Origin: an uncultured Pelagibacteraceae bacterium
GTDB lineage: Bacteria; Pseudomonadota; Alphaproteobacteria; Pelagibacterales; Pelagibacteraceae
NCBI GenBank assembly: GCA_902587735.1
Contig: CACIML010000007.1
Coordinates: 1 to 39,568, forward strand
DNA length: 39,568 nucleotides
Direction: 5' to 3'
The notes under the pieces were generated by a model, which saw only the letters and a list, made by a program, of their open reading frames with translations, was not told where the DNA came from and did no database searches. A program made the translations under genes and the position numbers. Shown here in pieces: positions 23,105 to 24,417 of the stretch (the stretch's first letter is position 1; every line of letters begins with the position of its first letter).

Positions 23105-23113
23105 ATCTTTATA

Positions 23114-23168
23114 CCAGCGCCGATTTAAGTCGAATTGCGGGGCGCTATATAAAATCCTGCTAAATAGA
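23114..23168 (+). promoter_or_regulatory. SAM-II riboswitch aptamer
   Basis: AGCGCC (23116-23121) pairs perfectly with GGCGCT (23141-23146) to form P1. The loop reads GATTTAAGTCGAATTGC and the 3' tail TATAAAATCCTGCTAAATAG. These match the SAM-II pattern GAUUUAA...AUUGC / P1 / ..AUAAA....GCUAAA. The loop ATTGC can pair with GCTAAA to make the H-type pseudoknot that encloses S-adenosylmethionine. It lies 190 nt upstream of bhmT, a gene whose product makes methionine, as expected for SAM feedback. Confidence 0.9.
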
Positions 23169-23210
23169 TGTTTCTATATGAACCACCTTTTTAGCAGGTG
23201 GTTTTTTTTT
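23156..23210 (+). terminator. SAM-II-controlled terminator with overlapping antiterminator
   Basis: AACCACCT (23181-23188) and AGGTGGTT (23196-23203) form an 8-bp stem with loop TTTTAGC, followed directly by T residues to 23210. The aptamer tail CCTGCTAAA (23156-23164) is perfectly complementary over 9 nt to TTTAGCAGG (23190-23198), which includes the loop and part of the 3' stem. Pairing of the free tail would therefore block the terminator. SAM binding holds the tail in the pseudoknot and lets the terminator form, so the switch is OFF with SAM. Confidence 0.85.
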
Positions 23211-23232
23211 GAATCATTTCTCAATTAATAAA

Positions 23233-23287
23233 CCGGGTATTTGAACCATATTGTGCACCCAGCATAAGCTAAAGCACTAAAAAGGAG
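23233..23287 (+). promoter_or_regulatory. SAM-V riboswitch aptamer (second in tandem)
   Basis: GGGT (23235-23238) pairs with ACCC (23257-23260). The loop is ATTTGAACCATATTGTGC and the tail AGCATAAGCTAAAGCACTAAAAAGGAG. GTGC (23253-23256) pairs with GCAC (23274-23277) to make a pseudoknot of the same layout as SAM-II, but longer and with the tail CTAAAAAGGAG, as I recall for SAM-V of marine bacteria. A tandem SAM-II/SAM-V order is known, from memory, before metY in Pelagibacter. The GGAG at its end is over 70 nt from the bhmT start with no start codon close behind, so it cannot be the bhmT Shine-Dalgarno itself. Confidence 0.78.
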
Positions 23288-23361
23288 AAAAGGGCTCAAT
23301 TTATTTCCCATTCAGTTAATTTAATGGGCTTCTTTTCTCCATTAGTTTGGAGAAAAAAATG
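23284..23361 (+). promoter_or_regulatory. Three-strand RBS relay between SAM-V and the bhmT start
   Basis: GGAGAAAAG (23284-23292, joined to the SAM-V tail) and GGAGAAAA (23349-23356, containing the bhmT Shine-Dalgarno) are both complementary to CTTTTCTCC (23332-23340). Pairing of the first with the middle strand gives 9 bp, or 11 with G-U pairs. It encloses a small hairpin CCCATT/AATGGG (23307-23312/23323-23328) and leaves the RBS free. Pairing of the middle strand with the second copy (8 bp, 8-nt loop) hides the RBS. SAM-V folding should compete for the first copy. The mechanism is inferred from complementarity. Confidence 0.6.
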
Positions 23362-24417
23362 AAAAAAAGAAGTTTAAAAGAAAGATTAGACAAAGGCCCT
23401 GTTATATGTGCAGAAGGTTTTCTTTTTGAAATAGAAAAGAGAGGCTACATGTCTTCTGGAGAGTTTGTTCCAATGGTTTCATTAGAAAATCCTGAAGCTC
23501 TATTAAATTTACATAGAGACTTTCAGCACGCAGGCTCAGATATTGTTCAGGCATTTACTTATAACGGACACAGAGAAAAAATGCGTGTTATTGGCAAAGA
23601 GGAGTTGCTAGAACCTCTTAATAGAGCAGCATTACAAATTGCCAAAGATGTTGCCGTTAGTCCAATGGGTAAAGAAGAAAATTTAATGGCTGGAAATATT
23701 TCAAATTCAAATATTTGGAATCAAAATGATAAAAAATCCCAATTAGAAGTAGAAAAAATGTTTCGGGAAATGGTAGCTTGGGCAGTTGATGAAGGTGCAG
23801 ACATTTTAATTGGTGAAACTTTTTATTATGCAGAAGAAGCGTACACTGCTTTAAAAGTAATGAAAGAAACCGGACTTCCATCTGTGATTACGATTGCTCC
23901 ATATGGTGAAAATATTATGAGAGATAGAATTTCTATTCTTGATACTTGTAAAGAGTTAGAACAAATAGGAGGAGATGTAGTAGGGATGAATTGTCATAGA
24001 GGACCTAATACAATGATGCCTTATCTAAAAGAGATTAGAAAAGAGTTAAAGTGTCATGTAGCTGGACTACCCATCACTTATAGAACAACCGATGATCATC
24101 CAACTTTTTTTAATTTACCTGATAATAATGGATGTTCTTGTCCTTCACCTCATGAAACAACTTTTCCTACAGCCCTAGATCCAATGCAATGTAGCAGATA
24201 TGAAATTGGACAATTTGCAAAAGAAGCTTATGATTTAGGAATAAATTACCTAGGTGTTTGTTGTGGAGCAACCCCTATGCTAATTAGAGAAGTTGCTGAA
24301 TCAGTGGGATTAAAAGTTCCTGCTAGCAAATATAGAGAAAATATGGAAAATCATTATATGTTTGGAAAAAATAAACGAATTCCAAAACATATAAAAGACT
24401 ATAGAAATAAAGCATAA
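23359..24417 (+). CDS. bhmT: Betaine-homocysteine S-methyltransferase (BHMT)
   Basis: The enzyme transfers a methyl group from glycine betaine to homocysteine, giving methionine and dimethylglycine. The roughly 352-residue protein has the homocysteine-methyltransferase barrel: GPVICAEGFLFEIEKRGY, SDIVQAFTYNGHREKM, DILIGETFYYAEE. The zinc ligands are C212 (GMNCHRGP) and C301/C302 (GVCCGATP), matching C217, C299 and C300 of human BHMT. The ORF track starts at a TTG at 23347; ATG 23359, 6 nt after TTTGGAG...AAA, is the better start and agrees with the leader structure. Expression is controlled by the SAM-II and SAM-V elements upstream. A rhodanese gene follows 28 nt downstream on the same strand. 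Confidence 0.95.
   Translation: MKKRSLKERLDKGPVICAEGFLFEIEKRGYMSSGEFVPMVSLENPEALLNLHRDFQHAGSDIVQAFTYNGHREKMRVIGKEELLEPLNRAALQIAKDVAVSPMGKEENLMAGNISNSNIWNQNDKKSQLEVEKMFREMVAWAVDEGADILIGETFYYAEEAYTALKVMKETGLPSVITIAPYGENIMRDRISILDTCKELEQIGGDVVGMNCHRGPNTMMPYLKEIRKELKCHVAGLPITYRTTDDHPTFFNLPDNNGCSCPSPHETTFPTALDPMQCSRYEIGQFAKEAYDLGINYLGVCCGATPMLIREVAESVGLKVPASKYRENMENHYMFGKNKRIPKHIKDYRNKA

Follow-up and report, generated by a model that had tools for sequence, protein, structure and literature searches.

Direct occlusion has its textbook example in the SAM-II and SAM-V riboswitches, and a review of riboswitch mechanisms files both under that heading (PMC10907184). In the SAM-V riboswitches before metY and mmuM (RF01826; PMC2704228, PMC6061858), the gene's own Shine-Dalgarno sequence lies at the 3' end of the aptamer, 8–12 nt from the start codon, and is covered directly. 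The published SAM-V model (PMC6061858) has SAM binding form a helix, P2a, between nucleotides 14–15 and the start of the Shine-Dalgarno sequence. The same paper reports selective binding of SAM by the bhmT aptamer of Candidatus Pelagibacter ubique HTCC1062, shown by ITC, and loss of binding in calorimetry once three 3'-terminal nucleotides are removed; from the 52-nt length given there, the deletion would remove one or both of the Gs that enter P2a.

Two other described systems act differently. Sequester/antisequester translational riboswitches (the type in Fig. 1B of PMC10907184) use mutually exclusive helices around a ribosome-binding site (RBS), and the SAM-II riboswitch of Sinorhizobium meliloti metA, whose aptamer belongs to the same superfamily, acts at a distance, its own Shine-Dalgarno sequence being required for a metA start codon 74 nt downstream (PMC9373788). 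A tandem of SAM-II and SAM-V before bhmT is also on record (PMC11508383; PMC9481103), with SAM-V described as controlling the RBS directly. The literature that we searched, which does not extend to the first description of SAM-V (Poiata et al. 2009, RNA 15:2046), contained no strand-exchange platform on SAM-II or SAM-V.

The DNA analyzed here (the window) is a 39,568-nt stretch from an uncultured Pelagibacteraceae bacterium (GCA_902587735.1, contig CACIML010000007.1), and all of the features described are on its forward strand. It contains a gene of the betaine/homocysteine S-methyltransferase family (bhmT, 23359–24417; an open reading frame with an internal ATG, PF02574 E-value 1.4e-33, with high identity to the bhmT genes of related genomes) that serves methionine synthesis, behind a 300-nt leader. 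A second bhmT-type gene, 49% identical, is present elsewhere in the same genome (G000:C9:8343-9353). The leader is orthologous to the published tandem, with the same gene, order and aptamers. The transcriptional and translational control of one gene that an earlier note on this DNA proposed for the tandem had thus already been published, and only the long-range strand relay between the SAM-V aptamer and the RBS, unlike the direct control described for the published tandem, appears to be new.

The upstream half of the leader carries a divergent SAM-II (SAM_alpha-like) aptamer at 23107–23184. It scores 22.5 bits against RF00521 (E-value 0.0083) and does not reach the gathering cutoff of 36; for its HTCC1062 orthologue, a study with probing data gives the identity as SAM-II (PMC11508383). 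The SAM-II core strand CTAAA is present and coupled to an intrinsic terminator (23182–23210; ACCACCT...AGGTGGT followed by a T tract). The 3' core strand, CCTGCTAAA (23156–23164), is complementary to the 3' half of this terminator, being the perfect complement of TTTAGCAGG at 23190–23198, and constitutes the antiterminator arm. The predicted energies are −15.2 kcal/mol for the antiterminator duplex and −7.6 kcal/mol for the terminator, and nearly all of the relatives keep both.

SAM-V is the sole RNA family to exceed its gathering score when the whole window is searched with cmscan. The aptamer spans 23226–23290 and matches RF01826 at model positions 1–66 of 66 (76.3 bits against a cutoff of 41; E-value 5.8e-11). 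Both helices of its H-type pseudoknot are present, P1 and P2 being formed by GUGC (23253–23256) with GCAC (23274–23277) and GGGU (23235–23238) with ACCC (23257–23260), with a compensated change relative to the GGC/GCC of the consensus. The CC at 23246–23247 is the expected P2a partner of GG 23284–23285, P2a being defined as in PMC6061858. By analogy with the selective binding known from the HTCC1062 orthologue, the aptamer is predicted to bind SAM.

Three strands follow one another from the 3' end of this aptamer to the start of bhmT. Strand A (GGAGAAAAG, 23284–23292), a putative antisequester, begins with a GG that also belongs to the 3' end of SAM-V. Strand B (CTTTTCTCC, 23332–23340), the putative sequester, can pair with A, in a helix that reaches 5' to about 23325, or with C, and is thus common to both helices. 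Strand C (GGAGAAAA, 23349–23356) is the Shine-Dalgarno sequence of bhmT; its GGAG, 6 nt before the ATG at 23359, is the only one at normal spacing. The distance from the aptamer GGAG to the bhmT ATG is 75 nt. The window has no start codon at usable spacing after this GGAG; the next ATG is 40 nt on and is not preceded by a Shine-Dalgarno sequence. A 12-codon frame, MGFFSPLVWRKK (23324–23362), ends in a TGA that overlaps the bhmT ATG by 4 nt; this frame lacks a Shine-Dalgarno sequence and is not conserved. No U tract follows B, and the idea that A:B serves as an intrinsic terminator was therefore dropped.

The strands described in the earlier note, and their capacity to pair in two exclusive ways, are thus found as stated, and so is its argument that direct RBS capture is unworkable at this locus: the GGAG captured by the aptamer is not the Shine-Dalgarno sequence of the regulated gene. 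What is found instead is the layout of a sequester/antisequester switch—two mutually exclusive helices with a shared strand, one of them over the RBS—and it is found in 41 distinct leaders. The arrangement resembles the SAM-V riboswitches of metY and mmuM in aptamer, ligand, position of the purine-rich 3' end and OFF logic, but the aptamer GGAG would here be a relay strand, with the real Shine-Dalgarno sequence about 70 nt away. It differs from S. meliloti metA in having a second Shine-Dalgarno sequence and an intervening strand.

We propose that the leader is a two-stage switch turned off by SAM. The first stage would be SAM-II with its antiterminator and terminator, which is of a known kind. 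In the second, the 3' GG(AG) of SAM-V would double as the 5' end of the antisequester. Without SAM, A would pair with B in a long hairpin, leaving C free for the synthesis of BhmT; in the presence of SAM, the first two Gs of A would be held in the P2a helix, the CUCC end of B would be left unpaired, and it would invade the GGAG of C and close the RBS, which lies about 70 nt beyond the aptamer. Since the 3' end of SAM-V is needed for SAM binding and its GG is shared with A, A:B pairing and SAM binding should exclude each other, although the SAM-bound aptamer may leave A:B partly possible because P2a has only 2 bp. We consider this two-stage switch with a SAM-V strand relay the best explanation of the leader, and a probable one. 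bhmT is among the most strongly induced genes in sulfur-limited HTCC1062, which represents SAR11, an abundant group of marine bacteria, and both its mRNA and its protein rise under this limitation (PMC5069961), as fits an OFF switch.

Leaders of relatives were collected by a genus-wide protein search, by scanning about 85,000 species genomes with a sequence pattern, and by a SAM-V search of 397 family genomes. They yielded 53 distinct bhmT leaders with SAM-V, in which the spacing from the aptamer GGAG to the ATG is bimodal: 67–80 nt in 41 leaders with the relay layout and 10–11 nt in 12 with a direct layout, counts that are skewed towards the relay because the scan pattern was designed to match it. 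The relay layout is present in HTCC1062, represented by genome G026, whose SAM-V coordinates match those published (PMC2704228) and whose bhmT leader has 73 nt between GGAG and ATG. All of the readable metY and mmuM SAM-V leaders, a set that excludes about a dozen retrieved loci left unparsed, use direct capture, with the metY start 8–12 nt from the GG. Neither these readable leaders nor a pattern scan of 399 genomes revealed the relay before any gene other than bhmT. Of 118 family genomes, a stricter three-strand pattern that includes the SAM-V tail matched that of the window alone, but HTCC1062 and other genomes known to carry the relay escape this pattern, and it does not delimit the range. 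As direct SAM-V capture serves bhmT in close relatives, the two layouts presumably do the same job.

Both hairpins can fold in all 41 relay leaders, with energies of −16 to −27 kcal/mol for A:B and −6 to −16 kcal/mol for B:C. Alignment of whole relay leaders with MAFFT and RNAalifold recovered only a 5-bp B:C-like helix as consensus; leaders with a shorter strand (GGAGAAG) were shifted by two columns, and anchored, ungapped blocks (26 distinct rows) were therefore used for covariation. A and B form standard pairs in 97.9% of cells, a value that none of 500 shuffles attains, and both partners change at five of nine pairs, which one of 500 shuffles reaches and which beats all slid registers; the covariation extends to the sequence of the distal stem. 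C and B form standard pairs in 93.8% of cells, a value matched by 27 of 500 shuffles and above all slid registers, with a both-sides change at a single pair. At position 7, 27 leaders have A-U-A across strands A, B and C, and eight have G-C-G. The eight resemble each other, are probably one leader lineage and precede two different bhmT clades, so the triple change may have arisen once and then spread by recombination. Pairing is better between native partners than after partners are exchanged between leaders (A:B, p=9e-8; C:B, p=5e-5), these values being optimistic because the leaders are related. The covariation of all three strands that the earlier note named as a check is accordingly seen for A:B and less so for B:C, whose weaker support comes more from conservation and energetics than from independent covariation.

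Within the apical loop of A:B, a conserved CCCTC/CCTCT motif is seen in 28 of the 41 leaders (L055, L057, L064 and others; shuffles have a mean of 3 and a maximum of 9), where the window has CCCATT at about 23307–23313. An early hairpin between the second half of A and this loop was considered, and partner swapping gave no support for it (p=0.29).

The exchange was modeled with ViennaRNA by holding the first two Gs of A unpaired and reading the probability that the GGAG of C is open; the folding energies refer to nested structures and leave out the pseudoknot, tertiary contacts, the ribosome, and kinetics or co-transcriptional order. The predicted minimum-energy fold of the window is A:B with C open (−19.2 kcal/mol) when unconstrained and B:C (−18.3 kcal/mol) when the GG is blocked. 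Across the leaders, blocking the GG lowers the median probability of an open RBS from 0.21 to 0.001, the median drop being about 650-fold (log10 2.81), and blocking two loop bases as a control has a median effect of nil. The predicted change exceeds 10-fold in 38 of the 41 leaders, the three exceptions being L050, L065 and L106, and the drop exceeds 100-fold in 85% of real leaders compared with 2.8% of dinucleotide shuffles. The ensemble cost of keeping the GG out is 1.3 kcal/mol, for the window and as the median, so that a modest binding energy could tip the switch. The direction set out in the earlier note, in which SAM takes A and the freed B masks C, matches these predictions and fits the calorimetry of the bhmT aptamer (PMC6061858), and from the folding models we infer that SAM binding would drive the exchange in the cell.

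GGAG-type short strands are common before start codons, and it might be asked whether A, B and C are chance purine and pyrimidine repeats in an AT-rich leader. Against this stand their conservation in 41 of 41 leaders, the covariation, and the gap between real and shuffled leaders in predicted switching; furthermore, when GGAGA-TCTCC-GGAGA was sought at relay spacing outside bhmT leaders in the 399 genomes, all of the same genus, the matches mostly looked like repeated coding sequences, as judged from the repetition of the matched sequences only. We regard a chance origin as extremely improbable.

A different reading takes A:B as a hairpin that is formed constitutively, holds C in the open state and does not respond to SAM-V, leaving regulation to SAM-II alone. 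The length of the A:B helix beside a P2a of just 2 bp agrees with this, as does the existence of a bhmT leader with an apparent SAM-II alone and no SAM-V (L052, in genome G078). A strand that merely holds B, however, has no need to overlap the 3' end of SAM-V in every case, the B:C helix is purposeless unless the state flips, for which the predicted cost is small, and SAM-V stays intact, with the CC of P2a kept in 40 of the 41 relay leaders. This reading is accordingly an unlikely one. The mechanism with the best support is that of the earlier note, in which the proposed relay would give a known aptamer a new expression platform; the case for it is strong in sequence and energetics.

Alternatively, ribosomes could enter or stand by at the aptamer GGAG itself, or this GGAG could be the Shine-Dalgarno sequence of a short upstream open reading frame, with bhmT translated by sliding or coupling. 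S. meliloti metA, for which such a mechanism has been proposed, provides a precedent in its distant start codon, and 11 of the 41 leaders, including that of HTCC1062, have an ATG 10–14 nt past the GGAG, opening a short frame that mostly runs into or past the bhmT start. The other 30, with the window among them, have no such ATG, and an upstream frame was rejected as the general mechanism on this ground; moreover, a well-spaced Shine-Dalgarno sequence, C, precedes bhmT in all of the leaders, and the aptamer GGAG is predicted to be paired to B, and hence not free, in the ON state. We think it improbable that entry at the aptamer accounts for bhmT translation, and favor the relay. The short frames themselves (L021, L056, L057, L058 and L116, which are HTCC1062-like, and L043, L049, L053, L054, L086 and L093) keep a constant register relative to bhmT and overlap its start in the HTCC1062-like leaders; they are possibly an additional upstream frame controlled by SAM-V.

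The 2024 probing study of the HTCC1062 leader used a 177-base RNA. Deduced from its numbering, for which the anchors on the HTCC1062 sequence (poly-U 82–90; U10, U11, A20, U21, U22, U46, A47 and A49) all agree, the RNA ends with the G of ...GGAGAAAAGAGGCCTATG as base 177. This end falls 55 nt short of the bhmT ATG, and strands B and C are therefore absent from the probed RNA. The ATG in ...GGAGAAAAGAGGCCTATG is out of frame with bhmT and opens a 23-codon frame.

On a tree of the BhmT proteins the distribution of relay and direct leaders needs at least nine changes, of which two are forced by well-supported branches, and L038 (relay) and L094 (direct) precede genes that are neighbours on the tree. 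The SAM-V loop reads TTAACC in most direct leaders and TTGAACC in relay leaders. These sequence patterns suggest that whole leader cassettes have been exchanged rather than rebuilt each time. We lean towards the view that, among the leaders of this one gene, a direct-occlusion aptamer was turned into a long-range strand-exchange trigger—the captured Shine-Dalgarno sequence becoming the antisequester and a new one arising downstream—and that bhmT genes with nearly the same sequence exchange one layout for the other. If this is true, natural populations offer a view of an expression platform as it changes; one gene, one ligand and one aptamer class with two output mechanisms form a natural paired comparison, in which the evolution of riboswitch expression platforms becomes testable.

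Several species also keep SAM-II/SAM-V tandems without bhmT (L025/L089, L066, L071, L092 and L098), in which the A:B hairpin is intact, strand C is absent, and a convergent HAD-like open reading frame comes next. These are either recent losses of bhmT or SAM-responsive RNAs with another role.
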